64,000 bases of DNA. Origin: Pseudomonadota bacterium. GTDB lineage: Bacteria; Pseudomonadota; Alphaproteobacteria; SHVP01. The notes under the pieces were generated by a model. The model was not told the DNA's origin. It worked only from the letters and a program-made list of their open reading frames with translations, and ran no database searches. The stretch lies in contig JAQBYN010000002.1 in assembly GCA_027622715.1 (NCBI GenBank), positions 1-64,000 of the forward strand, in the 5' to 3' direction. The position numbers and the translations under genes are program-made. Every line of letters begins with the position of its first letter. The first letter of the stretch is position 1. Positions 40,118-55,756 of this stretch are shown one piece after another.

Positions 40118-40263
40118 GAGCCTGTCCTAGGTGAGGGCCGGGAATATATGGCGGCTTTGGTGCACTGCACAAGGCGCGCGACGGCGAATTGCTCGAAACT
40201 GCGCCGTGTGGCGAGACAAGCCGGGCGCGTGGCAGCTATGTTGGCCGTCTTTCACGCGATTTC

Positions 40264-41472
40264 ATGACTCCCTCAACCGCCAGAAAGCCGCCGGTCCCGT
40301 TGCTGCTGTCCGTCCAAGTCGGCGGAATCGTGGCGATTAACGTGTTTGCGCCGTCGATGCCGGACATCGCGCAGTCCCTCGATACCTCGGCGACGGCGGT
40401 GCAGTGGACGATTACGGTGTTTCTCATCGGGTTTTCGGCCGGGCAACTCGTCTATGGCCCGATTTCAGACCGATTGGGGCGCCGCTCGGTCCTTTTTGGC
40501 GGAATGTTCCTGTTTTTGGTGGCGAACGCCGCGTGCGCCGCGGCGGCGACGATCGATTGGCTGCTGGCGGCTCGCCTGGTCCAGGGGTTCGGGGCGTGCT
40601 GTGGCAGCGTCCTGATGCGGGCGATCGTGCGCGACCTGTATGACCGAGACGACGCGGTCCGGATCATGAGTTATTTGGCGGTCGGTGCCGGCATTACGGC
40701 AGCCGTTGCACCGTCCATCGGGAGCGCGCTGATCGTTTTCGGCTGGCGCGCGAATTTTTGGTTTCTCGCGGTGGCAGCGGCGCTGCCGATGATGCTGGCC
40801 TATTTGTGGTTGCCCGAGACCCTCCCGCCGGAACGGCGCTTGTCGGGTCGCCGTGGCACGGTGCTGGGCGCCTATGCGACCCTATTCCGCTCGCGAACGT
40901 TCTTGGGGTATGGCCTGTTGATCGGTAGCGTCAACGCCCAATTCTTTGCCTTCATCGCCGGGGCGCCGTTCGTTCTGATCGGTGTCATGGGCATTCCGGC
41001 AGAGGCCTTTGGCCTTCTTATGTTGATGTCGACCGGCGGTTTTCTCGTCGGCAGCCTGATCGTGGCCCGACTCGCCGGGCGGATAGCCCCGCATCGCATT
41101 ATTGCGATCGGCGCGATTGTCGTCTTCATGTCGATCGCGGCGCTGCTGGTTCTTGCGCTGATCGGGCTAAACAGCGTTGCCGCGATTATGCTGCCGATGT
41201 TCGTTCAAGGTGCGGCCAGCGGGTTCGTGTTTCCACCGGCGATGGCGCTCGGTGTCGGGGCACACCCGCGCATTGCCGGGACTGCGTCGGGCACGCTTGG
41301 CGTGTTTCAAATGGGCAGCGCCGCGTTGGCTACTTTCATCGCCAGTCTGTTTGTCCATAACAGCATTATCCCGGTCGCGATAATCATGTTCGTGCTCGCG
41401 GCAATCGGCGTTGCGGCGTTGCGGCTCATCGGCGTTTCGTCGCACCGCCGCGATGACACGGCGCCGGGATGA
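40264..41472 (+). CDS. DHA1-type MFS transporter (Bcr/CflA-like), copy 1
   Basis: 402 residues from ATG 40264; no good ribosome binding site is visible and the frame is open further upstream. Twelve membrane helices. Motif A 'GPISDRLGRRSVLFGG' after helix 2 and motif C region 'YLAVGAGITAAVAPSIGSALIVFGWR' mark the drug:H+ antiporter group. 'INVFAPSMPDIAQSLDTSATAVQWTITVFLIGFS' is typical of Bcr/CflA. Probably exports a drug or metabolite. First of three adjacent homologues; its stop overlaps the next start (ATGA). Confidence 0.92.
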   Translation: MTPSTARKPPVPLLLSVQVGGIVAINVFAPSMPDIAQSLDTSATAVQWTITVFLIGFSAGQLVYGPISDRLGRRSVLFGGMFLFLVANAACAAAATIDWLLAARLVQGFGACCGSVLMRAIVRDLYDRDDAVRIMSYLAVGAGITAAVAPSIGSALIVFGWRANFWFLAVAAALPMMLAYLWLPETLPPERRLSGRRGTVLGAYATLFRSRTFLGYGLLIGSVNAQFFAFIAGAPFVLIGVMGIPAEAFGLLMLMSTGGFLVGSLIVARLAGRIAPHRIIAIGAIVVFMSIAALLVLALIGLNSVAAIMLPMFVQGAASGFVFPPAMALGVGAHPRIAGTASGTLGVFQMGSAALATFIASLFVHNSIIPVAIIMFVLAAIGVAALRLIGVSSHRRDDTAPG

Positions 41473-42671
41473 GCGATTCAGAAACCCGCCGCTACACGTT
41501 GGCGCTTCTACTGGCGCTGACGGGTACTTCGGCATTCTCCCTGCAGTTCTTTGTGCCGGCGATGCCTGCGCTGGTCGGGATTTTCGAGACGACACCGGCG
41601 ATGGTGCAACTGACCCTGACTCTGTTCTTGGCGGCTTACGGAATCTTTCAAGCCATCTATGGCCCGCTGTCGGACCGGTTCGGGCGCAAGCCGGTACTCG
41701 TCGCGGCCATTACAATTTACATCGCCGGATCTTTTCTCGGCGCGGCGGCGCTTAGCATCGAGATGGTGATCATTGCCCGTGTCCTGCAGGCGGTCGGGGC
41801 TGCGGCGGGTTTCGTATTGGTGCCGGCGATCGCCCGCGATGTTTACGGGCGCGACGGCGCGCCGCGCGCGATGGGTTACATCAGTATGACCAACGGATTC
41901 ATTTCGGCGGCTGGTCCGTTGGTCGGCGGCTTAATTCACCAATATGCCGGATGGCGTTACGGCCTGATGGCGACCGGGGCGCTTGGCGTCACGATGTTGC
42001 TCTTCACCGTGCTCTATTTGCGCGAGAGCGGCACCGTTATTCGGCAGCGCGTCGCAATCGCGGTCTTAGCGCGGGGATATGCCGCGCTGGCAAAGACCCG
42101 CGGGTTCATGGGCTACGTCTTGTCCGTCGCGTCGGTCAACGGTGTTTTTTATGCGTTTCTTGCCGGCGCTGCGTTCGTCGCGATCGAGAACCTTGGCGTA
42201 TCGCCGTCGGGTTTTGGGTTGTTGATGGTTCCGGCTGTCGCGATGTTCATGACCGCCTCCTTCTTCAGCGACCGGTTGGCGCGCCGGATCGGCACCACCC
42301 GGGTCATTCTCATTGGTACGCTCTTCACGGCGACCGGCGCCGTTGGTTTGCTCGTGGTCTCATTGGCCGGACACCAGAGCGTCACGGCATTGCTGATCGC
42401 CAGCGCCTTTATGGGCTTGGGCAACGGTCAAGTCCTGCCGGCGTGCATTTCCGAAGCGGTAAGCGTCGAGCCTCGGTTGGCAGGGACAGCATCGGCGTGG
42501 CTGGGCGTCAGTCAGATGGCGGTGGCGGCAGCCGCCAGCCAGATATATGGGTTCATCCATGACGGGACGACGCTCCCGGTTGCTCTATTAATGACAATCC
42601 TCGCAGGGGGCGCCCTGGGGGGTTGGGTTCTGATCGCCCGACGCAACGTTGCACCGGCGACCAGCGCGTGA
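41469..42671 (+). CDS. DHA1-type MFS transporter (Bcr/CflA-like), copy 2
   Basis: 400 residues, twelve helices, motif A 'GPLSDRFGRKPVLVAA', 'QFFVPAMPALVGIFETTPAMVQLTLTLFLAAYGIFQ'. It is much closer to copy 3 than to copy 1: both share 'ARVLQ(A/S)VGAAAGFVL.PA.ARD.YG.DGAPRA' and 'GLARGYAALA'-type loops. It is translationally coupled to copy 1. Likely a proton-coupled exporter; substrate unknown. Confidence 0.92.
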   Translation: MSDSETRRYTLALLLALTGTSAFSLQFFVPAMPALVGIFETTPAMVQLTLTLFLAAYGIFQAIYGPLSDRFGRKPVLVAAITIYIAGSFLGAAALSIEMVIIARVLQAVGAAAGFVLVPAIARDVYGRDGAPRAMGYISMTNGFISAAGPLVGGLIHQYAGWRYGLMATGALGVTMLLFTVLYLRESGTVIRQRVAIAVLARGYAALAKTRGFMGYVLSVASVNGVFYAFLAGAAFVAIENLGVSPSGFGLLMVPAVAMFMTASFFSDRLARRIGTTRVILIGTLFTATGAVGLLVVSLAGHQSVTALLIASAFMGLGNGQVLPACISEAVSVEPRLAGTASAWLGVSQMAVAAAASQIYGFIHDGTTLPVALLMTILAGGALGGWVLIARRNVAPATSA

Positions 42672-42725
42672 TCGCTGCGGCGAAAGGACTACTTTGCCCT
42701 TGGATCATTGCCTAAAGTCCCCGCG

Positions 42726-43931
42726 ATGCTGAACGCGCCGCCCGAACACCGCTACACCTTGATCTTGATGCTGACGATTAACGCGGTGTCGATCGTGGCG
42801 ATGCAGTTCATCGTGCCGGCGATGCCTGACCTCGTCGGCGAGTTCGCGACAACGCCCGCCATGGTCCAGCTCACGTTGACAATGTTCATGCTGGGCTATG
42901 CGGTATTTCAGATCGCTTACGGCCCGCTGTCCGATCGGTACGGTCGCAAAGGCGTGGTGATGTGGGCGACGCTCGTTTTTATCGCGGGCTCATTTCTTGG
43001 GGCCGTGGCGCCGTCGATCGAAGTGCTGGTTATCGCGCGTGTCCTGCAGTCGGTGGGTGCGGCGGCCGGCTTTGTTCTGCCGCCCGCGGTCGCGCGCGAT
43101 ATTTACGGTCACGACGGCGCGCCGCGCGCGATCGGTTGGATCAGCATCAGCGCCGGTCTCGCGGCATTATCGGCGCCCTATTTTGGCGGACTCATCCACG
43201 AAACCGCGGGATGGCGCTGGGGTATGGGTTTTAACGGTGTTCTCGGGATTGCTATTTTGGTGGCTTGCGGTTTGTTGCTGGCAGAGAGCCATCCGATCGC
43301 ACGGCGACAGTCCGTGGGTTTCGCTGGTTTGGCACGCGGTTACGCTGCCCTGGCGCGCTCGCGGCGCTTCATGGGTTATCTATTGGCGACGGCCTTCGTG
43401 AATGGCGCGTTCTATGCGTTCTTCGCTGGCGGTACTTTTGTGGCAATCCAGATTCTCGGCCTGTCGCCGTCGCAATTCGGCTTGCTGACCATTCCCGTTG
43501 TCGCGCTATTCTTGCCCAGCGCCTATCTCAGCGTGCGCATGGCCGCACGCTTCGGGTCGACCCGGATCATTGCGCTTGGCACCCTCACGACTGCGGCGGG
43601 GTCGATTGGATTGTTGTTTGTCGCGTTGTCGGGCAACGTAAGTGTGCCCGCGATTCTGGTCGCTAGCGCCCTATTAGGCTGGGGCAACGGTCAAGTGATC
43701 CCCAATGCGACCGCGGCTGCCGTCAACCTATTTCCGAAACTTGCGGGCACAGCGTCCGCCAGCCTCGGTACGGCCCAAATGGGCATGGGGGCGGTGGCGA
43801 GTTTGCTGTTCGGATTGTTGCATGACGGTACTTCAACCCCGATGGCGGCGCTGATGGCGGTCATGGGTCTCGCCGCCGTGCTGTCGTGCGGGCTGATCAT
43901 AGCCGCACGCCGCCGTCCCGCCGTGGCGTAA
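42726..43931 (+). CDS. DHA1-type MFS transporter (Bcr/CflA-like), copy 3
   Basis: 401 residues from ATG 42726; a TTG at 42708 is also possible and neither has a strong ribosome binding site. Twelve helices, motif A 'GPLSDRYGRKGVVMWA', 'QFIVPAMPDLVGEFATTPAMVQLTLTMFMLGYAVFQ', and 'WGNGQVIPNATAAAVNLFPKLAGTASASLGTAQMG'. It is a recent-looking tandem duplicate of copy 2. The epimerase gene follows 25 bp later. Confidence 0.9.
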   Translation: MLNAPPEHRYTLILMLTINAVSIVAMQFIVPAMPDLVGEFATTPAMVQLTLTMFMLGYAVFQIAYGPLSDRYGRKGVVMWATLVFIAGSFLGAVAPSIEVLVIARVLQSVGAAAGFVLPPAVARDIYGHDGAPRAIGWISISAGLAALSAPYFGGLIHETAGWRWGMGFNGVLGIAILVACGLLLAESHPIARRQSVGFAGLARGYAALARSRRFMGYLLATAFVNGAFYAFFAGGTFVAIQILGLSPSQFGLLTIPVVALFLPSAYLSVRMAARFGSTRIIALGTLTTAAGSIGLLFVALSGNVSVPAILVASALLGWGNGQVIPNATAAAVNLFPKLAGTASASLGTAQMGMGAVASLLFGLLHDGTSTPMAALMAVMGLAAVLSCGLIIAARRRPAVA

Positions 43932-43956
43932 CTTGATCGGTAAAAAAGGAGGCGAC

Positions 43957-44898
43957 ATGACATATCTCGTGACCGGCGGCACCGGGTTTATCGGCTCTTG
44001 GGTGGTCAAGTCGTTGCTGGAACGCGGGCACAAAGTTGTCGCCTTCGACCTGGTGCCCGGACGTCACGCCCTCGATCCCGTGGTCGGCGAGCGGGCCGAT
44101 GAAGTGACGATCGTGCAGGGCGATTTTACCCAGATGCACCGCGTGCTCGAAACAGTGCGCGAACACAAGATCACCCACATCGCGCATATTGCCGCCGCTG
44201 GCCTCAATTTGTGCAATGCGAACCCGGCGCATGCCGTTCATGTCAACGGTGTCGGCTTTGCGAGCATGCTCGAGGTCTGCCGCACGATGGATATCGAGCG
44301 GATGGTGTGGGCCAGTTCGGCGGGCGTGTTCGGCGGCAGCTGGGGGAGCAAAGCGGTGCCCAATGACGCCCCGTTCCAACCGCGCAACGTCTACGCCGGG
44401 CTCAAGGTCTTGGGCGAAACGCTGGCCGCGCAGTATCACGCGACCTATGGGACCGACGTGATCGGCCTGCGCTACACTTTCGTTAACGGACATGGCATGC
44501 CCAATCATCAAGGCGGCCAGATGATCCGCGAACTTTGCGAAAAGACCGCGCTCGGTCAGCCCGCGCAGGTGCCGTGGGGCGAAGATTCGCCCGATTGGCT
44601 GTGGGGCGGGGACGCGGGCGAGGCGACCGCCTTGGCGCTTGAAGCGGCGCCGACAAAATCGCGGGCCTTTAACGTGCCGGGCGATCACGCGCCGATGACC
44701 CGCGCGGTCGAATACGTGAAGTCACTTTTGCCCGACGCCGACATCACGCTGAAGGCGGGCAAGATGGGCTTCAACCGGTTCGACGGGTCGGTCACCGAGA
44801 AGGAAATCGGCTACAAGCCGAAGTGGACCATGGAAATGCAGCTGCGCGAACGTATCAACCGCGTGCGCCAAGAACACGGATTGCCGCTGGTCGGGTAA
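43957..44898 (+). CDS. NAD-dependent epimerase/dehydratase (extended SDR)
   Basis: 313 residues; ATG 43957 follows a perfect AGGAGG. Cofactor motif 'YLVTGGTGFIGSWVVKSLLERGHKVVAFD', active-site Ser in 'MVWASSAGVFGG', catalytic pair YAGLK in 'NVYAGLKVLGETLAAQYH', and 'GLRYTFVNGHGMPNHQGGQM' in the substrate loop. The family acts on nucleotide sugars or small hydroxy/oxo compounds. It is placed among four MFS genes, so it may alter a compound they export. Substrate unknown. Confidence 0.9.
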   Translation: MTYLVTGGTGFIGSWVVKSLLERGHKVVAFDLVPGRHALDPVVGERADEVTIVQGDFTQMHRVLETVREHKITHIAHIAAAGLNLCNANPAHAVHVNGVGFASMLEVCRTMDIERMVWASSAGVFGGSWGSKAVPNDAPFQPRNVYAGLKVLGETLAAQYHATYGTDVIGLRYTFVNGHGMPNHQGGQMIRELCEKTALGQPAQVPWGEDSPDWLWGGDAGEATALALEAAPTKSRAFNVPGDHAPMTRAVEYVKSLLPDADITLKAGKMGFNRFDGSVTEKEIGYKPKWTMEMQLRERINRVRQEHGLPLVG

Positions 44899-44929
44899 TC
44901 TCATCGCCACCTCGGAACCATCGAAGACA

Positions 44930-46138
44930 GTGACGGTGCGCAAGCCGCCGGTCATTTTCTTAGTCACCGTGACGGCCGCGGGCATTTTCGCGACCAACAT
45001 GTACGTCCCATCGTTGCCGGCGATCGCCATTGACTTAGCGGCGAGCGAACGCGCTGTGCAGTTCACGATGACCGCGTTCCTGATCGTTTTCGCGGTCTTT
45101 CAGCTGGTCTATGGCCCGCTGGCCGACCGCTACGGGCGCAAGCGGATCATGCTGGGTGGCTTGACGATATTTATGATCGCTAATGTCATCGCCGCGAGCG
45201 CGCAGTCGATTGAGTGGCTGTTGGTCGCGCGTGTCCTGCAGGCGGTTGGCGCATGTGCGGGTCTGGTGATTAGCCGCGCCATGGTGCGAGACACCTACGA
45301 GCGAGGCGAAAGCGCCCGTATCATGGCCTATCTCGGCATGGGGTCGGGCGTATCGTCGTCCGTTGCGCCGTTGCTCGGCGGTGCGCTGCAGGGATGGACG
45401 GGCGATTGGCGCTCCAGTTTCGTCTTCATGAGCGTCTTCACGTTGGGCCCGATGCTGGTGCTCGCCCTTACGGTGCGCGAGACGTTACGCCGGGAAGACG
45501 CCGCGCGAGGCGGACTCGGCGGGATGGTGCGGGATTATTTTTCTCTATTGAGGACGCCGGAGTACATGTTGTTTTCGTTGGGCGCGGCCATGATGAACGC
45601 CACGTTCTTCGCGTTTCTGACGACCGCGCCGTTCATTTTGATCAATGTCGTCGGGGCGTCACCCGAGCGCTTGGGCGTCGTGCTGCTCTACATCACCACC
45701 GGATTTTTTGTCGGGAACTTGGTGGTTTCTCGAATCGGCGCGCGGTTTCCGCTTGAACGTATGATTCTCGGCGGGAGCACGCTTTGTTTCGCGGGGGTCG
45801 CGATCTTCACAGTGCTGGCGCTTGGCGGCGCGCGGAGCGAAGAGGCGATCGCACTGCCGATGTTGTTGTTCGGTTTAGGCAACGGTTTCGTGCTGCCGCC
45901 ATCGAGCGTGATCGCGGTCAGCGTCCGACCGCAGGTCGCTGGGACTGCATCCGCGCTATATGGGTTCAATGCCTTCGGACTTGGTGCGCTCGGCACCGTC
46001 GTCGCCGGCCTAATCTCCAATGAGACTCAGGTGCCTTTGGGGTTCGCAATGATGACGATGACGGGGATGGCGGTCGTCTTCTTTGCAACCGGCACCATAA
46101 TCACGCGCCGACGAGACGTCGCTAGATTACGAGGTTGA
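44930..46138 (+). CDS. DHA1-type MFS transporter (Bcr/CflA-like), copy 4
   Basis: 402 residues from GTG 44930 (a second in-frame GTG lies at 44936). Twelve helices, motif A 'GPLADRYGRKRIMLGG', 'TNMYVPSLPAIAIDLAASERAVQFTMTAFLIVFAVFQ', motif C region 'YLGMGSGVSSSVAPLLGGALQGWTGDWR'. It is more like copy 1 than copies 2 and 3. Its 3' end overlaps the convergent SBBP gene by 17 bp. Confidence 0.92.
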   Translation: MTVRKPPVIFLVTVTAAGIFATNMYVPSLPAIAIDLAASERAVQFTMTAFLIVFAVFQLVYGPLADRYGRKRIMLGGLTIFMIANVIAASAQSIEWLLVARVLQAVGACAGLVISRAMVRDTYERGESARIMAYLGMGSGVSSSVAPLLGGALQGWTGDWRSSFVFMSVFTLGPMLVLALTVRETLRREDAARGGLGGMVRDYFSLLRTPEYMLFSLGAAMMNATFFAFLTTAPFILINVVGASPERLGVVLLYITTGFFVGNLVVSRIGARFPLERMILGGSTLCFAGVAIFTVLALGGARSEEAIALPMLLFGLGNGFVLPPSSVIAVSVRPQVAGTASALYGFNAFGLGALGTVVAGLISNETQVPLGFAMMTMTGMAVVFFATGTIITRRRDVARLRG

Positions 46139-48851
46139 ACAAGCTGCCTTGTCCACCGGCAAATGCGCTCGCGTTGTTACTCGCGTTGAACGAAATGGAT
46201 TGCAGCCGCTGTAGCGCCGCTTGCATCGACGATATTTGATCGAGGAGGCGCTGCGGTGGTTGAGGTGGGAGCTCGAACTCGGGGTCCGGGCCCTCGGTCT
46301 TAAGGCGGAACGCTTTCTTGATGGTCGAACTCGCGAATTCGAGCAATGTCACAGCATCCTCGACAGCGCTCTCCGTCAGAAGGTTGATGTCGCTGGTCAG
46401 ACCCAGACCGAAGTTGGTCTCGACAAAGCCCTCGCTGCCATCATCTTCAACCTCACCGAAAAGTACTTCGGGGCGCAAGCCAATGCCCGACAATGCGTCA
46501 CGTCCTTCCGGGCCGGCGATCAATTCGATCTTATGACCGTTGAGTGCACTGACCCGGAGGAATCGCCCGGTAATGTCGCCATCGATGAACCGCGCGGTGC
46601 CTTCGCCGCCAGAGCCGATCGCGTTGCGGAGTTTGAATGCGAGGAAACCATAGGTATCGTCGTCGTCGATCGTGATTTGTTTTCGCGGTCCGTTATCGAC
46701 GGAGACATAGAAATACTGGCCGGGCCGGATCGTGCTAACGCTGGTGATCGTATCGGAGGGATCGGGGGGCACTTCACCCGTCGGGAGACCCATCCGCGAC
46801 AACACGTTCGTTCCGTTGGCGTCGAAAGCGATCGACGACCCGCGTTGATCGAACCCGCCACCAAACTGGTGGCGCCACGTTTCGTTGAGGGTCGCATCGA
46901 ACTTGATCACGAAAGCGTCGGTGATGCCGGTCGATGTCTCGCCGCCCAAAGTGCCGGCGGTTTCGCCAGTGACGTAGACCTCTTCGGTCGTCGGATCGAC
47001 GGCGACGCTGAAGGCGCGATCGCCGACCGCGGTACCCATGAACGTGCCAAACGTGACCGCGCCATCCGCGTTGGCAAGTTTGGCCACGAACCCGTCGGTG
47101 TCGCCAGCGTGGGCCGTGACCGGCGTTGTCCCGCCGAAGAATGCGGTATTCGAGGTGTAGCCGCTGACGTAGATGTCGCCGTCGCTATCGACGGTCAGGC
47201 CAGTGACGGCACCATCGCTGCCGAGCGTGCCGCTAAACTCCCAGTCCTGCGCGGTCGCGTCGCCGTCGGCATAGCGCCGAACGAACCCGACACCATCGTC
47301 AGTTCCGGCAAGCAACACGTTGCCTGACCCGTCGACCGCTACGGCGGTGTGCTGCTCATCGCCAGCATCGCCAAATTGTCGGCTGTACACAAAGGAGCCG
47401 CTGCTGTCGAGTTTCGTGACGAACGCGTCGTCCCCGCCGCTATACCCCTCGCCGGGAGCAATCTCGGAGCGGGTCAAACCGGCAATGAATATTTCGTTGC
47501 TGCTGTTGACGGTCAGGGAGACCGCAACATCGTCCAAAAAGGGGCCCGCTTGCCGAGTCCATTGCTCTTGCCCGACGCTGTTGAATTGGGTGACAAAGGC
47601 GTCAAGGTTGCCGCCGAAGGCGTTGGCCGTGAGTTCGCCGCGCACCTGGCCCGTGACGATAACGTTGTCGTTGCTATCGACTGCAACGGCAAAGCCGGCG
47701 CCGTCTACAGTTGCGCCAAGACGTCGGGTGAACTCGAGAGTGCCGGCGGCGTCGTACTTGTTTAGGAACACATCGCTGTTCTCGGGATCAACATTTTGCG
47801 TGCCGAGATCGCCGGCGGTTTTCCCAACAACATACACCGCGCCGGTGCTGTCAACGGCGACCCCACGGGCGTCGTCGCCCTTATCGGTCGTATCGATCTG
47901 ATTGTAGAAAACCTCGGTCGGATTGGCGGTCACGAGATCGTCGATCTTGGTAACGAAGCCACCGCCCGATGGCCCCTGACCGCGCAGGCCGGCGACGTAG
48001 ACCGCGCTCGATTCGGTTGCCGCGGCAGCACTGAGGGTCGCGGTTTCGCCGAAACCAACATCGATACGGAACCCGTATTTATTCTCGTCGTAGCGCTCGG
48101 TGTGTAGCTGGGTCGCAATGCCTGCGTTGACCAACTCGGGATTCACGTAGGCTGAAATATTGTCCAGCGTGTAATCGTTCGGATCTGCGCTGACTGCGCT
48201 CAATGTAATTGTGACCGAACGGACGGTGGTTCCATCATCGGTTTGGACGGTGAATTGGTCTGTTGGGGTTAGTCCCGGTATCGGATCGTTGCGGTTTTCC
48301 AGAATGACCGCCCCGTTGAAGCGCGGCGCGCTTTCGTCCTGAGGCAGGACAATCGACGAATCGAGGTCGGCCTCCAATATTCCGGTGACCAGCGAGATAG
48401 TGTTGTAATTCGCGCCGTTGACAAAGGTTTCGAGTTCGGCGACCCGAGTCTGGAATTTGCTGTCCACCAGCGTCGACAACAGCTTGCCCTGCGTCGTCTG
48501 GGCATACTTTGCGATATCCAACATTTCATTGACCGCTTTGTAGGCGGCGAAGAGCGATTTCGAATCGTCGTCCAGGTCGACGCGGTCGAACAGCGGATCC
48601 TTCGGATCGATCAACGCTGCCTGCGAAAACACCCGTTGCTCGAGGCTTTTGTCGGGGACCGTCTGACGCAGCTGCCAGGGCGGAATAACGGTTTGTTCGC
48701 GGGCCGCGATCAGCCGGCCGATCTCACCGTTGCGCAAAACCGCCGTGCGCACAGCCGCCGACTGTCCACCGCCAGCAGCGTAATAGTTGCCGATGACGTT
48801 GAAGTCGAAAAAGAGCGGCTGATACCTCGCGAACGAGGACGAGAAGACCAT
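46122..48851 (-). CDS. Large SBBP-repeat protein, possibly flagellum-associated (FlaEY-like)
   Basis: 909 residues with no signal peptide. Residues about 1-150 are helical and resemble the ends of flagellar axial proteins. Residues about 280-680 hold at least seven SBBP (beta-propeller type) repeats of about 50 residues, of the form 'GVAVDSTGAVYVVGKTAGDL..' followed by 'DVFLNKYDAAGTLEFTRRLG'. The last 40 residues ('LLDQISSMQAALQRLQSISF', then NASNNASAFAGGQGSLFNLVI) are an amphipathic, flagellin-like tail. Caulobacter FlaEY, needed for flagellar filament assembly and modification, is an SBBP protein; I offer it as an analogue, not a proven orthologue. A sigma-54-like promoter lies just upstream. 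It is divergent from the sugar operon. Confidence 0.75.
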   Translation of the reverse strand: MVFSSSFARYQPLFFDFNVIGNYYAAGGGQSAAVRTAVLRNGEIGRLIAAREQTVIPPWQLRQTVPDKSLEQRVFSQAALIDPKDPLFDRVDLDDDSKSLFAAYKAVNEMLDIAKYAQTTQGKLLSTLVDSKFQTRVAELETFVNGANYNTISLVTGILEADLDSSIVLPQDESAPRFNGAVILENRNDPIPGLTPTDQFTVQTDDGTTVRSVTITLSAVSADPNDYTLDNISAYVNPELVNAGIATQLHTERYDENKYGFRIDVGFGETATLSAAAATESSAVYVAGLRGQGPSGGGFVTKIDDLVTANPTEVFYNQIDTTDKGDDARGVAVDSTGAVYVVGKTAGDLGTQNVDPENSDVFLNKYDAAGTLEFTRRLGATVDGAGFAVAVDSNDNVIVTGQVRGELTANAFGGNLDAFVTQFNSVGQEQWTRQAGPFLDDVAVSLTVNSSNEIFIAGLTRSEIAPGEGYSGGDDAFVTKLDSSGSFVYSRQFGDAGDEQHTAVAVDGSGNVLLAGTDDGVGFVRRYADGDATAQDWEFSGTLGSDGAVTGLTVDSDGDIYVSGYTSNTAFFGGTTPVTAHAGDTDGFVAKLANADGAVTFGTFMGTAVGDRAFSVAVDPTTEEVYVTGETAGTLGGETSTGITDAFVIKFDATLNETWRHQFGGGFDQRGSSIAFDANGTNVLSRMGLPTGEVPPDPSDTITSVSTIRPGQYFYVSVDNGPRKQITIDDDDTYGFLAFKLRNAIGSGGEGTARFIDGDITGRFLRVSALNGHKIELIAGPEGRDALSGIGLRPEVLFGEVEDDGSEGFVETNFGLGLTSDINLLTESAVEDAVTLLEFASSTIKKAFRLKTEGPDPEFELPPQPPQRLLDQISSMQAALQRLQSISFNASNNASAFAGGQGSLFNLVI

Positions 48852-48891: not shown

Positions 48892-48908
48892 TGCAAACAA
48901 TGAGCCAG
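48892..48908 (-). promoter_or_regulatory. Sigma-54-like (-24/-12) promoter for the SBBP gene
   Basis: On the minus strand CTGGCTCATTGTTTGCA keeps the essential GG (48906-48905) and GC (48894-48893) with exactly ten bases between them, and both TGGC and TTGC are intact. The start point would fall near 48881, about 30 bp before the ATG. Flagellar structural genes are often under sigma-54. Confidence 0.65.
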
Positions 48909-48919
48909 CCGCGCCGGTC

Positions 48920-48936
48920 CTGGCATGCCAAATGCA
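48920..48936 (+). promoter_or_regulatory. Sigma-54-like (-24/-12) promoter for the sugar operon
   Basis: CTGGCATGCCAAATGCA has GG (48922-48923) and GC (48934-48935) ten bases apart; the -12 box is ATGC instead of TTGC. It points right towards the sugar operon, giving a leader of about 175 nt. It lies only 11 bp from the leftward -24/-12 motif. The part TGGCATGCCA is itself palindromic, so a chance match or protein site is possible. Confidence 0.5.
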
Positions 48937-49090
48937 CCGTATACCTTCGAAATCAGGGTTAACGGCTGTCCGGCTTGGTTCGGATTCACCGACTGTTAAC
49001 CAAACCGCCGTGAGAATGCCGGAGATATGACACAGGAACGCGCACGACCACCCGTTCGCCGCATCGGCAGGGGGTGGATTGTGCCCACCA

Positions 49091-49109
49091 CCCGGCAAAT
49101 TTTGCCGGG
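49091..49109. promoter_or_regulatory. 19-bp palindrome directly upstream of the sugar operon start
   Basis: CCCGGCAAATTTTGCCGGG has nine-base perfect arms around one base. It ends 13 bp before the ATG at 49123, just in front of the AGAGG ribosome binding site, so it could be an operator or an mRNA leader hairpin controlling translation. Confidence 0.55.
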
Positions 49110-49122
49110 CAAAGAGGCATAA

Positions 49123-50703
49123 ATGGCCCCTGGCGAACCCGCTGCGATCCCGTTTGATATCTTGCGTTCTCCTAAACGGGCCCGCGATAAGATCAAATCG
49201 TTGCAGGACCTCGCGGCGATCTCCGCTGCGCTGAAGGCGCGGGGTAAGACCATCGTTCTCGCCCACGGCGTGTTCGACCTGGTCCATATGGGGCATGTCC
49301 GTCATCTGGAGGCCGCCGCCGCGGAAGGCGACGTCCTTATCGTGACGATTACCCCTGATGAATTCGTCAACAAGGGGCCGGGGCGCCCGGTTTTCACTGG
49401 AGGTCTGCGCGCCGAAATGCTCGCGGCGCTGGGCTGCACGGACTGGATCGGCGTGAACGAATGGTCGAGCGCTGAGCAATTGCTCGAACTCGTTCGTCCG
49501 GACGTCTACGTCAAAGGCTCCGACTACTCCAACGAGGGCGAGGACCTCACCGGCAAGATTCGGATGGAGCGGGAAGCCGTCGAGCGGCACGGCGGCCGCG
49601 TCGTCTATACCGACGACATCACTTTTTCCTCGTCCTCGCTGATTAACCGGCACCTGAACGTCTTCGAACCCGACGTGATGGAGTATCTCAACGGACTCGA
49701 CAAGGCGGCGCATTTGGAAAGCGCTCTTGGCGCGCTCGATCGCATTAAAGACATGCGCGTGCTGCTAGTCGGCGAAGCGATCATCGACGAATATCTGTAC
49801 GCGAAGCCGATGGGGAAGTCGGCGAAAGAAAATATCATCGCGTCGCGCTACTCGGGCCGCGAGGTTTTTGCTGGTGGCGTCATCGCCGCGGCAAATCACG
49901 TCGCCGACTTCGTCAAGGATGTCGAAGTCGTCACCATCCTCGGCGAACGAGAATCCTACCAAAGCCTCATCCGCGACACGATCCGTGACAACGTAACGAT
50001 CCACAGCCTGTATCGCCCCGGCCTTCCGACCATTCGCAAGAGCCGATATGTCGACCCCGGGCACATGCGCAAGCTATTCGAGGTGTATCACTTCGACGAC
50101 ACCCCGTTGAACGGGCCGATCGAGAAACAACTATGCGACATGATCGGGGATCGGGCGCGTGATTTCGATGTTGTGATCGTCACCGATTTTGGTCACGGCA
50201 TGATGACGCCGCGCGCCATTCGAACCACCATCGAAACCGCGCCGTTCTTGGCGGTCAACGCACAGAGCAATAGTGCTAACCTCGGCTACAACATGGTCAC
50301 CCGCTACAACCGCGCCGACTATGTTTGCATTGACGCGCCAGAGGCACAGCTAGCGACTGGCGACCGGTTTTCCGACATCGAAGACGTCATTACCGACGGC
50401 CTCGCCCATGCGATTGATTGCGATCGCATTGCTGTGACGCACGGCCAAAATGGCTGCGTCACGTACGACCGCCAGCAAGATGTGCGGCGTGTCCCGGCTT
50501 TTACCCGCCAAGTTGTGGATACCGTCGGCGCGGGCGATGCATTCCTCGCGGTGACATCGCCGGTGGTGGCCGCTGGCGCCGACATGGAGGTCGCCGGCTT
50601 CATCGGCAATGCCGTGGGCGCGCTGAAGGTTGGCATCGTTGGGCACCGCCAGTCGGTGGAAAAGATTCCGGTCCAGAAATACATAACAACGTTGTTGAAG
50701 TAG
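49123..50703 (+). CDS. Bifunctional HldE-like enzyme with reversed order: cytidylyltransferase then PfkB/RfaE kinase
   Basis: 526 residues. Residues about 25-175 are a nucleotidyltransferase: 'KTIVLAHGVFDLVHMGHVRHLEAAA' with the HxGH motif (HMGH) and 'RPDVYVKGSDYS'. Residues about 205-526 are a ribokinase-fold sugar kinase: 'MRVLLVGEAIIDEYLY', 'EVFAGGVIAAANHVADF', and the anion-hole/catalytic 'VVDTVGAGDAFLAVTSP'. In HldE the kinase comes first and the nucleotidyltransferase second, so this order is reversed. It should phosphorylate a sugar phosphate at C1 and then activate it with a nucleotide. First gene of a seven-gene operon; AGAGG precedes the ATG. Confidence 0.88.
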   Translation: MAPGEPAAIPFDILRSPKRARDKIKSLQDLAAISAALKARGKTIVLAHGVFDLVHMGHVRHLEAAAAEGDVLIVTITPDEFVNKGPGRPVFTGGLRAEMLAALGCTDWIGVNEWSSAEQLLELVRPDVYVKGSDYSNEGEDLTGKIRMEREAVERHGGRVVYTDDITFSSSSLINRHLNVFEPDVMEYLNGLDKAAHLESALGALDRIKDMRVLLVGEAIIDEYLYAKPMGKSAKENIIASRYSGREVFAGGVIAAANHVADFVKDVEVVTILGERESYQSLIRDTIRDNVTIHSLYRPGLPTIRKSRYVDPGHMRKLFEVYHFDDTPLNGPIEKQLCDMIGDRARDFDVVIVTDFGHGMMTPRAIRTTIETAPFLAVNAQSNSANLGYNMVTRYNRADYVCIDAPEAQLATGDRFSDIEDVITDGLAHAIDCDRIAVTHGQNGCVTYDRQQDVRRVPAFTRQVVDTVGAGDAFLAVTSPVVAAGADMEVAGFIGNAVGALKVGIVGHRQSVEKIPVQKYITTLLK

Positions 50704-50709
50704 GGCGCT

Positions 50710-51342
50710 ATGGCAGTCGATTTCTCGAAACAAAATCTCTCGGCGTATTTTGCGACGCTTGGTGCGATGGATCGTCGAATTGTTGCGACAGATGAAACCG
50801 GCGCACGGCTTGATCTGGCGGCAGTCATGGGCGCGGCCATGGAGCGGGCGCAGCTGACCCACGACGCCGGCAAAAAGCTCATGTTTATCGGCAATGGCGG
50901 GTCTTCGACGGTCGCGAGCCATATGGCCGAGGATTACACCAAGGCGGGCGGTATTCGCGCCATGGCATTCAACGACCCGGCCTTTCTAACCTGCTTGGGC
51001 AACGATCTCGGTTTCGATCAAATATTTGCCAAGCAGATCGAGATGTTCGCGCAACCGGGCGACATGTTGGTGGCGATTTCAAGTTCGGGAAATTCGCAAA
51101 ACATTTTGAACGGCGTATTCGCTGCGCAAAAACGCGGGTGTTGGGTGATGACGCTGTCGGGATTCACCCCGGACAATCTGCTGCGCAACCTCGGCGACAT
51201 CAACGTTTACGTGCCGTCTAGCGAATACGGTTTTGTCGAGATTGCCCATTTGGCGGTGTGCCACGCGATGCTCGACATTGCGATGGGCTGGCAAGATCGC
51301 GCCGATCCGGAACACCGTTCTTTGAAAGTGGTTTCAGCATGA
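50710..51342 (+). CDS. SIS-domain sugar-phosphate isomerase (GmhA-like)
   Basis: 210 residues. SIS domain with 'KLMFIGNGGSSTVASHMAEDYTKAGGIRAMAFND', 'QPGDMLVAISSSGNSQNILNG' and 'YGFVEIAHLAVCHAMLDIAMG', closely matching the layout of sedoheptulose-7-phosphate isomerase GmhA, including the late Glu/His segment. GmhA converts sedoheptulose 7-phosphate to heptose 7-phosphate. It lies 7 bp after the HldE-like gene and four-base coupled to the epimerase. Its substrate could be produced by the transketolase at the operon's end. Confidence 0.88.
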   Translation: MAVDFSKQNLSAYFATLGAMDRRIVATDETGARLDLAAVMGAAMERAQLTHDAGKKLMFIGNGGSSTVASHMAEDYTKAGGIRAMAFNDPAFLTCLGNDLGFDQIFAKQIEMFAQPGDMLVAISSSGNSQNILNGVFAAQKRGCWVMTLSGFTPDNLLRNLGDINVYVPSSEYGFVEIAHLAVCHAMLDIAMGWQDRADPEHRSLKVVSA

Positions 51343-52337
51343 CGAACAAGACCTGGAACGTTCTTGTCACCGGCGGTGCCGGCTACGTCGGCAGCGCGCT
51401 GGTGCCCAAGCTTCTGGCTGCCGGGCACCGCGTAACGGTTCTGGATTTGTACATCTACGGCGATGTCTTCGCGCCGATCAAAGGCGATCCGAAGCTCCGC
51501 GAGGTAAAAGGCGATTTGCGTGACCGCGCCGCGGTGGCCGATGCCATGCAGGGCTGCGACGCCGTCATTCACCTGGCGTGTATTTCCAACGACCCTAGTT
51601 TCGAATTGAACCCCGATCTTGGCAAGTCCATCAACTACGACGCGTTTCGCCCGCTGGTTCGGGTCGCCAAAACCGAAGGGGTTCGCCGCTTCATCTACGC
51701 GTCGTCGTCGAGCGTCTACGGCATCAAGGACGATCCCGAAGTAACCGAGGACCTGCCGCTCGACCCACTGACCGACTACTCCAAGTTCAAGGCGATGTGC
51801 GAAGACGTGCTGGCTGAGGAGCGCGAACCCGGGTTCACCACGCTTATCATCCGGCCCGCCACGGTGTGCGGCTACGCACCCCGGTTGCGCCTTGATCTGA
51901 CCGTCAACATCTTGACCAACCACGCGATCAATAACGGCAAGATAACCGTTTTCGGCGGCGCGCAACGCCGCCCGAACATCAACATCGAGGACATGACCGA
52001 TCTCTATGTCAACTGTCTGCAATACGAAGACGCGGCGATTGACGGCAAGATTTTCAACGCCGGTTTTGAGAACCACAGCGTCGCGGAAATTGCAGAGATG
52101 GTCCGCACCTCGGTCGGCAATGGCGTCGAGGTCGTGACTCAGTCGACCGACGACATGCGCTCCTATCACGTCTCATCGCAGAAGATTCGCGATGAACTCG
52201 GATTTGTTCCAGTGCATACGATTGAAGATGCGGTGGACAGTCTGATTGCCGCGTTCAAAACCGGGCAGGTGGCCGATCCAATGGCGAATCCGCTCTACTA
52301 CAACATCAAAACAATGCAGGCGATAGATTTGGCATGA
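51339..52337 (+). CDS. NAD-dependent nucleotide-sugar epimerase/dehydratase
   Basis: 332 residues; ATG 51339 overlaps the preceding stop (ATGA). Extended SDR: 'NVLVTGGAGYVGSALVPKLLAAGHRVTVLD', 'AVIHLACISNDPSFELNPDLGKSINYDAF', active-site 'FIYASSSSVYGIKDDPEV' and YSKFK in 'DPLTDYSKFKAMCEDVL'. It should epimerise or dehydrate the NDP-sugar made by the HldE-like enzyme, in the position of HldD in the classic heptose pathway. Confidence 0.9.
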   Translation: MTNKTWNVLVTGGAGYVGSALVPKLLAAGHRVTVLDLYIYGDVFAPIKGDPKLREVKGDLRDRAAVADAMQGCDAVIHLACISNDPSFELNPDLGKSINYDAFRPLVRVAKTEGVRRFIYASSSSVYGIKDDPEVTEDLPLDPLTDYSKFKAMCEDVLAEEREPGFTTLIIRPATVCGYAPRLRLDLTVNILTNHAINNGKITVFGGAQRRPNINIEDMTDLYVNCLQYEDAAIDGKIFNAGFENHSVAEIAEMVRTSVGNGVEVVTQSTDDMRSYHVSSQKIRDELGFVPVHTIEDAVDSLIAAFKTGQVADPMANPLYYNIKTMQAIDLA

Positions 52338-52969
52338 CCTTGCTTCTCGGAATCGATTTCGATAATACGATTGTCAGCTACGACGCGTTATTCGCGCGGC
52401 TCGCAATCGAGGCGGGCTACATTGACGATGTACCGTCCGGCGGAAAAACTGCAATCCGCGACGTGGTGCGCGCCGCGCACGGCGACAAGGCGTGGCAATT
52501 GCTGCAAGCCGACGCCTACGGTGCCCGCGTGAGCGAAGCATTGCTAAGCCAGGGTTTCTCGGCCTTCGTTTCCAGCGCCCGCCGGTTGGGGGTTCCGCTG
52601 GTCGTCGTCAGCCACAAGTCAGTGTTTTCGCATGTTGCCGCCGGCGGCCCGAATCTTCGTTACGCCGCGCTGGCCTGGATGCGGGCGAACCGGTTCTTTG
52701 AACCCGGCGGGCTTGGCTTCGGCGTTGATGACATCTATTTCGAAGGGACGCGGTGCGAGAAGGTGGCGCGCATTCGAGAACTCGGCTGCACCCACTTTGT
52801 CGATGACCTTCCCGAAGTCTTCGCGGAAAAATCCTTTCCCAATGGTGCGATGCGTATCTTGTACGCCCCGACCGGAGACCGTGCGGACGGATCCGCTGAC
52901 GCCGTTGTGAGCGATTGGTTCGACCTACGCGATCTTCTCTTCGCCCATGCCGAAAGAGCCGTCGCGTAA
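52334..52969 (+). CDS. HAD-superfamily hydrolase/phosphatase
   Basis: 211 residues, ATGA-coupled to the epimerase gene. Motif I 'LLLGIDFDNTIVSYD' (nucleophile Asp and acid Asp two on), motif II 'LVVVSHKS', motif III Lys region and motif IV 'CTHFVDDLPEVF'. A sugar-phosphate phosphatase role, as GmhB plays in the heptose pathway, is inferred from the neighbours; the chain is not clearly GmhB itself. The next gene's frame begins inside its 3' end. Confidence 0.82.
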   Translation: MTLLLGIDFDNTIVSYDALFARLAIEAGYIDDVPSGGKTAIRDVVRAAHGDKAWQLLQADAYGARVSEALLSQGFSAFVSSARRLGVPLVVVSHKSVFSHVAAGGPNLRYAALAWMRANRFFEPGGLGFGVDDIYFEGTRCEKVARIRELGCTHFVDDLPEVFAEKSFPNGAMRILYAPTGDRADGSADAVVSDWFDLRDLLFAHAERAVA

Positions 52970-53982
52970 ACGAGCTGTCGCAGATCGCTGAAGTTGCCCG
53001 CGCATTATGCGGCGGCACGGTGGGCGGCTTGGAAGAGATCAATGGCGCCGGCAATCATCGGGTCTACCGCGTTGACGGCAGTAACGGATCACGTTTTGCG
53101 CTCAAGACCTACTTTGCCGGCGGCCATGATGGCCCGCAGCGTTTGAGCGCTGAGTTCAAAGGCCTCACCTATATGTGGCGCGAAGGATTGCGCGTTATTC
53201 CCGAGCCAATGGCGGCGGACCGTGAAGCGCAGTGTGCCCTGTTCGGATGGATCGAAGGCGACCCTGTAACCAAACCGAGGCCGGTCGACATCGATGCGGC
53301 CAGCGACTTCATCCGCGCGCTGCGCGATCTGGCGCGGCAGCCTGACTCCGCGGAATTACCACTTGCCCGCGAGGCATGCTTGTCGCCGGACGAGTTGCAT
53401 CGGCAGATTGTCGCACGCCGGGCACGGTTGGCGCGGGAATCCGCATTTCGCGGCGATCTCGCCCTGTTCTTGCGCGACACATTTGACGACACGTTGCATG
53501 TCAACTGGGCCAAAGCCCGGCGCGGACTTGCTGCCGCGGGGATTCCTGCCGGTAAAGACCTGCCGGTCGAACACCGGACGCTGTCGCCGTCGGATTTTGG
53601 ATTTCACAACGCCGTCCGCGCTGCCGACGGCACCCTGATTTTCTGCGACTTCGAATATTTCGGTTGGGACGATCCGGTCAAGCTGGTTGCGGACTTTGTT
53701 CTTCACCCCGGAATGGCCCTGAAACCGCGCCTCGCCGACCGATTCGAGAAAAACGCTTCAGCGATATTTGCCGGCGATCCAGCTTTCGCCGATCGTTTGA
53801 AGCTGTTGAAGCCGCTTTATGCACTGCGCTGGGCCCTCATTACATTGAACGAGTTCATTCCCGAGCGCTGGGCGCAACGGGCCTTTGCCCACGGCGAACG
53901 CGATCGCAATGCAGTGCTGGGGCAACAACTTGCCAAGGCCGAAGGCTTTGTCTCTCGCGTTCATGAGGAGATCGCCGCGTGA
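52915..53982 (+). CDS. Aminoglycoside phosphotransferase/choline-kinase-fold sugar kinase
   Basis: Up to 355 residues, APH fold: 'INGAGNHRVYRVDGSNGSRFALKTYF' holds the nucleotide loop and Lys; the catalytic loop is 'TLSPSDFGFHNAV' (Asp and Asn) and the metal motif 'LIFCDFEYFGWDDPVKLVADF'. The start is uncertain: TTG 52915 is the only in-frame start before the HAD stop and overlaps it by 55 bp; a start just after the HAD stop (near VNELS at 52966) would need a non-standard codon. Family members in sugar loci phosphorylate sugars or amino-sugars. It is GTGA-coupled to the transketolase gene. Confidence 0.8.
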   Translation: MVRPTRSSLRPCRKSRRVNELSQIAEVARALCGGTVGGLEEINGAGNHRVYRVDGSNGSRFALKTYFAGGHDGPQRLSAEFKGLTYMWREGLRVIPEPMAADREAQCALFGWIEGDPVTKPRPVDIDAASDFIRALRDLARQPDSAELPLAREACLSPDELHRQIVARRARLARESAFRGDLALFLRDTFDDTLHVNWAKARRGLAAAGIPAGKDLPVEHRTLSPSDFGFHNAVRAADGTLIFCDFEYFGWDDPVKLVADFVLHPGMALKPRLADRFEKNASAIFAGDPAFADRLKLLKPLYALRWALITLNEFIPERWAQRAFAHGERDRNAVLGQQLAKAEGFVSRVHEEIAA

Positions 53983-54815
53983 CTCATGAGGCACACATTC
54001 GGGTTGTCGGCGACGACCTCGACGAACGGTCATTGGCGCTGCGGCGCCTTGTTGTGCGCGGCCTCGACGGTGGCAAACGCGGGCATATGGGATCGGCCTT
54101 CTCGCTGATTGAAATGCTGCGCGTTCTCTATGACGACATTCTGCGCTTCGACCCGAAGAACCCGACTTGGGCCGACCGCGACCGCTGCATCTTGAGCAAA
54201 GGGCACGGCTGCCTCGCGCTCTACGCCATCCTCGCCGATAGGGGCTTCTTTCCGGCGGCCGAGCTCGACCGGTTTTGCCAATTCGACGGCATGCTTGGCG
54301 GCCACCCCGAGCGCGCCAAAGTTCCTGGGGTCGAAGCGTCGACCGGTGCACTAGGCCACGGGTTGTCGATCGGTCTGGGACAGGCTTTGGCAATGCGCCT
54401 GCAAAAGCGCGACTCACGCGTTTTCGTGATCATGGGCGACGGCGAAATCAACGAGGGATCGGTTTGGGAGGCTGCGCTGTGCGCAGGCAAACACCGGCTC
54501 TCGAATCTGGTGGCCATGGTCGATTACAACAAACTGCAATCCTATGACCGAACCAGCATCGTACAGGACCTTGAACCGCTTGCCGATAAATGGCGCGCGT
54601 TCGGTTTTGACGTACGCGAGGTCGACGGCCATGACGTCGATCAGTTGCACCGCGTTCTTTCTAACGTACCGTTCGATAGCGGCAAGCCGTCGGCAATCAT
54701 TTGCCACACCGTGAAGGGCAGGGGCATTGCCGTGGCGGAAGGCAATCCCGAATGGCACCACAGATCCAAGATCAATGACGACGAAGTCGCCGCCATGTAC
54801 GCCGAGCTGGAGTAG
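53979..54815 (+). CDS. Transketolase, N-terminal (TPP-binding) subunit
   Basis: 278 residues from GTG 53979. 'KRGHMGSAFSLIEMLRVLYDDILRF', 'DRCILSKGHGCLALYAILADRGFF', 'GGHPERAKVPGVEASTGALGHGLSIGLGQALAMRLQ', and the TPP motif 'VFVIMGDGEINEGSVWEAALCAGKHRLSNLVAMVDYNKLQ'. Together with the next gene it forms a split transketolase, half-length subunits as in many secondary-metabolite and sugar loci. It could make a ketoheptose or branched ketose phosphate to feed the GmhA-like isomerase. Confidence 0.93.
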   Translation: MTHEAHIRVVGDDLDERSLALRRLVVRGLDGGKRGHMGSAFSLIEMLRVLYDDILRFDPKNPTWADRDRCILSKGHGCLALYAILADRGFFPAAELDRFCQFDGMLGGHPERAKVPGVEASTGALGHGLSIGLGQALAMRLQKRDSRVFVIMGDGEINEGSVWEAALCAGKHRLSNLVAMVDYNKLQSYDRTSIVQDLEPLADKWRAFGFDVREVDGHDVDQLHRVLSNVPFDSGKPSAIICHTVKGRGIAVAEGNPEWHHRSKINDDEVAAMYAELE

Positions 54816-54817
54816 CT

Positions 54818-55756
54818 ATGCGTAAAACAAGCCTCGATTGCGTTTACGAACTTGCGCGGCGCGACCCACGCGTTGTGTTCATCGGCTCCGATCTCGGTGC
54901 CGGCACGCTCGACTCGTTCAAAGAAGAGATGCCCGAGCGTTTCTTTATGGAAGGCGTGACCGAACAAAACATTATTGGCATGGCCGCCGGCCTGGCGATG
55001 GAAGGCTACATCCCTTACGTCAACACGATCGCGACTTTCATCACCCGTCGTTGTTTCGAGCAGGTCGCGGTCGATTTGTGCCTTCATAACTTGCCGGTAC
55101 GTCTCATCGGGAATGGTGGTGGTTTGGTTTACGCGCCGCTTGGGCCGACGCATCTCGCCATTGAAGACATCTCGATCATGCGGTCGCTCCCGAACATGAC
55201 CGTCGTGGCGCCGGTCGATAAAGAAGAGATGGCGCGCTTTGTGCCCCAAACGCTCGATATGCCGGGTCCGGTTTACATTCGCTTGGCAAAAGGCGGCGAC
55301 CCGATCGTCTCGCGCGCCGAAAATGGATTCACGGTCGGCAAGGCCATCTTGATGCGCGACCCAGGTGATATTCTGCTGGTTTCAACCGGTGTCATGACGA
55401 ACCGCGCGTTGGACGCGGCGGCGGCGCTCGAAGCCACCGGCGGTCTGCGCTGCGGCGTGCTGCACATGCACACCGTTAAGCCACTAGACGACGCTGCATT
55501 GCTTGATCTTGCCGGCAAGGTCCGCGGGATTGTCACCGTGGAAGAACACACGCTGGTCGGCGGCCTAGGTAGTGCGGTCAACGACCTACTCGGCGACCGG
55601 CTGGGCCGGCGCGCGCCGCCAGTCTTGCGTCTGGGCATTCCCGATCGATTCCCAGATAAGTACGGCACACAAGACGACCTGCTCGGCTACTACGGGCTCC
55701 AGCCCGATGCTATTGCCAGCTCCGTCAGAGAGTTTGCCTCGGTTCATCTGCGCTAG
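54818..55756 (+). CDS. Transketolase, C-terminal subunit
   Basis: 312 residues, starting two bases after the N-subunit stop. Pyrimidine-binding domain with 'VFIGSDLGAGTLDSFKEEMPERFFMEGVTEQNIIGMAAGLAMEGYIPYVNTIATFITRRCFEQ' and the C-terminal domain 'VEEHTLVGGLGSAVNDLL'. The Glu in 'GVTEQN' is the TPP-activating residue. Last gene of the sugar operon. Confidence 0.93.
   Translation: MRKTSLDCVYELARRDPRVVFIGSDLGAGTLDSFKEEMPERFFMEGVTEQNIIGMAAGLAMEGYIPYVNTIATFITRRCFEQVAVDLCLHNLPVRLIGNGGGLVYAPLGPTHLAIEDISIMRSLPNMTVVAPVDKEEMARFVPQTLDMPGPVYIRLAKGGDPIVSRAENGFTVGKAILMRDPGDILLVSTGVMTNRALDAAAALEATGGLRCGVLHMHTVKPLDDAALLDLAGKVRGIVTVEEHTLVGGLGSAVNDLLGDRLGRRAPPVLRLGIPDRFPDKYGTQDDLLGYYGLQPDAIASSVREFASVHLR

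Follow-up and report, generated by a model that had tools for sequence, protein, structure and literature searches.

Predicted two-way sigma-54 control of the flagellar type between an SBBP β-propeller gene and a sugar operon in a marine alphaproteobacterium

The 271-bp spacer between an SBBP β-propeller gene and a divergently oriented sugar operon likely forms a sigma-54 control region of the flagellar type that works in both directions and is driven by an enhancer, with FlbD as the most probable activator of transcription. It contains two predicted back-to-back -24/-12 promoters and one perfect palindrome. The SBBP gene and the sugar operon are probably switched on along with the flagellum, since the promoters are paired and the palindrome is like the one that precedes the flagellin genes of related bacteria. 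By comparison with relatives, the assignment of the spacer to a flagellar programme is well supported. The type of control is already known, and the SBBP gene and the sugar operon add a solid new example to it. The spacer is located in a window of 64,000 nucleotides (G000:C1:1-64000) from an uncultured marine alphaproteobacterium. The assembly of this host, G000, is a bin that comprises 86 contigs and 3.15 Mb and encodes rpoN; the named genomes nearest to it are those of uncultured Alphaproteobacteria. Herein, G001 and G002 are other species of the genus of the window, G004 (G004a) belongs to another genus of the same family, and L063 is the locus of a distant SBBP homologue.

Two back-to-back promoter sites and their conservation

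The site facing the SBBP gene, TGGCTCATTGTTTGC, occupies positions 48893 to 48907 on the reverse strand, and the site facing the sugar operon, TGGCATGCCAAATGC, occupies positions 48921 to 48935 on the forward strand. A sigma-54 promoter would start transcription 11 to 12 bp after the GC element in dependence on rpoN; the predicted starts are at about 48881 and 48947, respectively. An earlier note on this DNA had described both sites as keeping the GG-N10-GC spacing and facing opposite ways, and both 15-mers are found as described. The separation of 11 bp given there holds for the 17-mers 48892-48908 (reverse) and 48920-48936 (forward); the gap from core to core between the two 15-mers is 13 bp. 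Each site matches 9 of 11 positions of the sigma-54 consensus (TGGCAC-N5-TTGC, with GG and GC exactly 10 bp apart). The leftward site indeed has the full TGGC and TTGC boxes ascribed to it, and the rightward site has a full TGGC, but ATGC replaces TTGC. By its boxes and its distribution, the sugar-facing site is weaker than the SBBP-facing one and less widely conserved. The RpoN motif of Caulobacter is GGCNC-N4-CTTGC (PMC4287350); the leftward sites of G001 and G002 conform to it in full.

One such site alone is weak evidence because the strict pattern TGGC-N7-TTGC occurs at the background rate in the genome, with 224 copies compared with 209 of the reversed control pattern and therefore no excess, and because shuffling the 271-bp spacer yields each single site with p ~0.04. 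Counting the motif genome-wide was accordingly dropped as proof. The arrangement as a pair is far rarer. It is the only back-to-back pair no more than 40 bp apart in the 64-kb window, even at a relaxed threshold. None of 4000 dinucleotide shuffles of the spacer itself gave such a pair, and for any of four spacers (its own and those of relatives) it appeared in at most 3 of 4000.

The conservation of the GG and GC positions in homologous spacers, proposed in the earlier note as a check, was examined in G001, G002, and G004a, and both sites keep them in all three. The pairs are TGGCGCATTCCTTGC and TGGCACGGCTGATGC in G001, TGGCGCAGTCCTTGC and TGGCACGGCAAATGC in G002, and TGGCGTGGAACTTGC and TGGCACGAGTCCTGC in G004, all at the same place and in the same orientation. 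In the three-way alignment of the window with G001 and G002, the -24 and -12 boxes of both sites (TGGC, TTGC/ATGC) are invariant. Each 15-mer is 73% identical in this genus alignment, compared with 15% for the 13 bp between them, 17% for the SBBP leader, and 48% for the whole spacer. About half of the third codon positions of the SBBP gene differ and NG86 dS exceeds 1.4, so that unconstrained sequence is largely randomized and the boxes stand out. The idea that both sites are chance matches draws on the missing genome-wide excess of the strict pattern and on the single-site p of ~0.04. It is hardly credible and, on the sequence comparison, already contradicted by the outcome of the conservation test: the paired boxes are kept in three relatives, in G004a even with a spacing of 7 bp instead of 13, and the intervening sequence is variable.

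The two sites differ in how far they reach. G005 and G008 have the SBBP-facing site only, TGGCCTAAATATTGC, as does G003 with TGGCCTGCTTGTTGC, and L063 also has a leftward site. Neither site is found in G010, L062, and L064 at the threshold used, though the gene pair is conserved there. The sugar-facing site is thus the more recent or the more expendable one, since G003, G005, and G008 keep only its counterpart.

A further element of the spacer is a CtrA-like box, TTCACCGACTGTTAA (TTAA-N7-TTAA, 7 of 8 positions; 48985 to 48999, forward strand), which is situated within the longest conserved block; its shuffle p of 0.03 to 0.06 is suggestive only. The longest invariant run of the spacer, GTTAACCAAACCGC, overlaps this box, which may act here. 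It is possible, if rather doubtful, that of the two sites the SBBP-facing one alone works as a sigma-54 promoter and that the sugar operon is mainly transcribed from a housekeeping promoter under CtrA, located close to the conserved GTTAACC block; such promoters are reported for flagellar genes of other Alphaproteobacteria. The wider distribution of leftward sites (G003, G005, G008, and L063) and the overlap of the invariant run with the box agree with such a division, and divergent flagellar promoters can be served by a single CtrA site (PMC6180460). However, no position of the rightward boxes CTGGCA and ATGCACC varies within the genus, the rightward site scores 10 of 11 in G001, G002, and G004a, higher than in the window, and the CtrA-box scores are weak compared with shuffles. 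A sigma-70 scan of the spacer, of a kind that does not cover CtrA promoters, gave no promoter of the standard type.

A palindrome common to the spacer and to flagellar genes

The third element of the spacer, which was not part of the earlier note, is the perfect palindrome CGGCAAATTTTGCCG at positions 49093 to 49107, extending to CCCGGCAAATTTTGCCGGG (49091 to 49109). The leftward site is 200 bp away, and the start codon of the HldE-like gene follows after 15 bp. Only two perfect copies of CGGCAA-N3-TTGCCG exist in the host genome. At the same place in the spacer, the palindrome scores 12/12 in the window, 12/12 in G001, 11/12 in G002, and 10/12 in G004a, and none of 4000 shuffles of the spacer itself reached its score.

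Across ~609 kb scanned, noncoding matches of at least 11/12 concentrate at flagellar or SBBP loci, a concentration that is qualitative since part of this DNA was chosen for flagellar genes or motif content. As background, ~130 kb of flanking DNA of G001 gave one match, inside a reading frame. At flagellin genes the palindrome is located upstream of sigma-54 sites, by 178 bp in G001, 176 and 158 bp in G002, 175 bp in G003, and 111 bp in G010. Before the SBBP gene of L063 stands a sigma-54 site without mismatch, TGGCACGGCCTTTGC; a perfect palindrome lies a further 119 bp upstream. In G001, a perfect palindrome stands 62 bp before fliF (G001:C3:407861) with no sigma-54 site. One palindrome is, as expected for an activator site of an FlbD/ftr regulon, common to the SBBP spacer, the flagellins of relatives, and the fliF region of G001, which makes it a probable FlbD enhancer. 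The link between palindrome and FlbD rests on gene neighbors, from which we infer that it may be called an ftr site. Its position 15 bp before the HldE start codon, within the predicted leader, would also suit an RNA hairpin or a regulatory leader of the sugar operon instead of an activator site, but at the flagellin genes of relatives the palindrome is upstream of the promoters and outside the transcripts, and this alternative is very improbable.

Two further loci of the host genome have a similar layout. At G000:C13:27334-27435, the palindrome GGGCAATGGTTGCCG is followed after 87 bp by a perfect sigma-54 site, TGGCACGAGCATTGC, and a GGDEF gene, coding for a diguanylate cyclase, begins 54 bp after that. 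Besides the copy in the spacer, the genome has one more perfect palindrome, which lies 154 bp before TGGCCTGAAACTTGC within G000:C4:13094-13262; no clear gene directly follows, and a short secreted-type ORF starts ~480 bp farther on.

The divergent gene pair and its host genome

The SBBP gene (46122 to 48851, reverse strand) encodes a β-propeller protein of 909 residues with helical N- and C-terminal regions, and it is under purifying selection (dN/dS ~0.07). Full-length relatives are found in the genus and the family. The predicted fold is a propeller between helical ends. A fold search with the model returned propellers only, with CylK as the best match, so that a flagellin-like role of the terminal helices is not supported by the predicted structure; a weak Flagellin_N match (E 0.01) occurs in 1 of 10 homologues. 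When kinship of the SBBP protein with Caulobacter FlaEY was considered, a plasmid search gave propeller matches only. G004 has two SBBP paralogues (L032 and L033), 55% identical to the protein of the window, only one of which is divergent from the sugar operon.

The sugar operon is encoded on the forward strand and begins with an HldE-like protein (49123 to 50703), whose nucleotidyltransferase domain precedes the sugar kinase domain, the reverse of the order in Escherichia coli HldE. It is followed by a GmhA-like phosphosugar isomerase with a SIS domain (50710 to 51342) and an NAD-dependent sugar epimerase/dehydratase (51330 to 52337). Two genes without a family match come next, phosphatase-like (52334 to 52969) and kinase-like (52951 to 53982) by eye only, both conserved in position. 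The N-terminal and C-terminal halves of a transketolase (53979 to 54815 and 54818 to 55756) complete the operon. On the other side of the SBBP gene, 40189 to 46138 holds four long reading frames resembling MFS transporters in tandem and, among them, a gene of the epimerase family; in G001, too, the unit is flanked by MFS-like matches.

The divergent unit of SBBP gene and sugar operon is kept in at least 10 genomes (G001 to G005, G008, G010, L062, L063, and L064; the contig of L062 holds only the first genes of the operon). In G003, G005, and G010, its contig runs on into a TPR/GT41 glycosyltransferase, flagellins, and FlbT, so that the sugar genes are near flagellin and glycosyltransferase genes as in a flagellin glycosylation locus, and GT41 is also present on the contigs of the unit in G004a and G008. 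In the host genome and in G001, the operon is not adjacent to such genes. The simplest reading, which we infer from these neighborhoods, is that the sugar serves flagellin glycosylation.

FlhA is present in all tested genomes with a full-length SBBP gene, the window's own excepted. Genomes of the same genus have FlhA and hook/rod proteins, whereas a search of the host assembly gave no FlhA, no Flg_bbr_C protein (hook/rod proteins), and no FlbD-like activator; two orphan flagellin genes were found. Because of this, the flagellar programme is evidenced in relatives rather than in the host. Host contig C21 follows G001 at its right end and stops ~1.5 kb short of the first flagellar gene of G001, and the left end of contig C19 stops ~2 kb short of its second flagellar cluster. 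That the contigs break off at both cluster borders points to missing contigs or to strain variation, true loss being less likely, and the absence of flagellar genes may be an assembly gap because the contigs end where the clusters of G001 begin. A loss of the flagellum was, in view of these contig ends, not accepted from the absent FlhA and hook/rod proteins. G001 encodes an FlbD-like activator beside FlhA; no candidate was found in the host assembly, whose contigs end at the cluster borders.

Both promoters might instead depend on sigma-54 with another activator, such as NtrC or an orphan response regulator on contig C21, the flagellar link being incidental here. The host assembly encodes four sigma-54 activators, none of which is an FlbD beside FlhA; together with the absence of FlhA and Flg_bbr_C, and with a palindrome and perfect sigma-54 site that precede a GGDEF gene and not a flagellar gene, this lends the alternative some weight. 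It is nonetheless unlikely, given that palindrome and sigma-54 sites stand before the flagellins of four relatives and the palindrome before fliF, and that the contig ends offer an assembly gap as explanation for the absent genes. More improbable still is that the species has lost basal body and hook and has retained the sigma-54/palindrome regulon (SBBP, sugar operon, diguanylate cyclase, and orphan flagellin-like genes), now serving a different surface structure that is glycosylated.

Proposed mode of control and comparison with known systems

The earlier note had proposed shared sigma-54 (flagellar) control of both genes. The conserved pair, the palindrome common with flagellins, and the operon near flagellin, FlbT, and GT41 genes speak for it, and the part concerning the sugar operon does not extend to G003, G005, and G008, where the rightward site is absent. 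In the preferred reading of the spacer as a two-way control region, sigma-54 RNA polymerase would bind both back-to-back sites, and an enhancer-binding protein, most likely FlbD, would bind the palindrome and open both promoters. For the SBBP promoter, the palindrome would act from ~186 bp upstream, a usual enhancer distance, and for the sugar operon from within the leader, ~150 bp past the start. With the GG elements ~16 bp apart, there would be little room for two polymerases, which may compete. For the sugar operon, the CtrA-like box could supply additional or alternative control. Production of the SBBP protein, and of a nucleotide sugar of the heptose-like kind for glycosylating flagellin, would in this way be timed to flagellum assembly. 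The activator, the start sites, the use of an enhancer downstream of a start, and what becomes of the sugar are herein predicted.

Among known systems, the divergent flaN/flbG units of Caulobacter crescentus, as cited in PMC3096577, have a sigma-54 promoter with downstream ftr elements, and a 3′ enhancer of a flagellar promoter, cited in the same article, sets a precedent for such downstream elements. As far as these citations describe them, the systems are alike in divergent units, sigma-54 promoters, and activator sites possibly downstream of the start; unlike flaN/flbG, the genes here are those of a propeller-repeat protein and a sugar operon, with activator and starts predicted. Caulobacter FlbD activates middle and late genes via ftr sites and represses fliF at ftr4 (PMC3930126). 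The palindrome with sigma-54 sites before the flagellins of relatives, and alone before fliF of G001, resembles this class III/IV control, a likeness by arrangement and not by ftr sequence, but here the control would reach sugar synthesis genes. Flagellin O-glycosylation in Caulobacter is carried out by FlmG (PMC7591256), to which the TPR-containing, flagellin-linked glycosyltransferase (GT41 in G001) near flagellin genes is comparable; the sugar genes here, in contrast, are of the heptose type (HldE/GmhA-like) and are accompanied by a split transketolase.

In uncultured marine Alphaproteobacteria, the arrangement would bring a propeller-repeat protein and the provision of a heptose-like sugar under the flagellar sigma-54 cascade. 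CGGCAA-N3-TTGCCG is herein a predicted activator site that may be used for listing the rest of the regulon, and the flagellin of these bacteria is predicted to bear an uncommon sugar.
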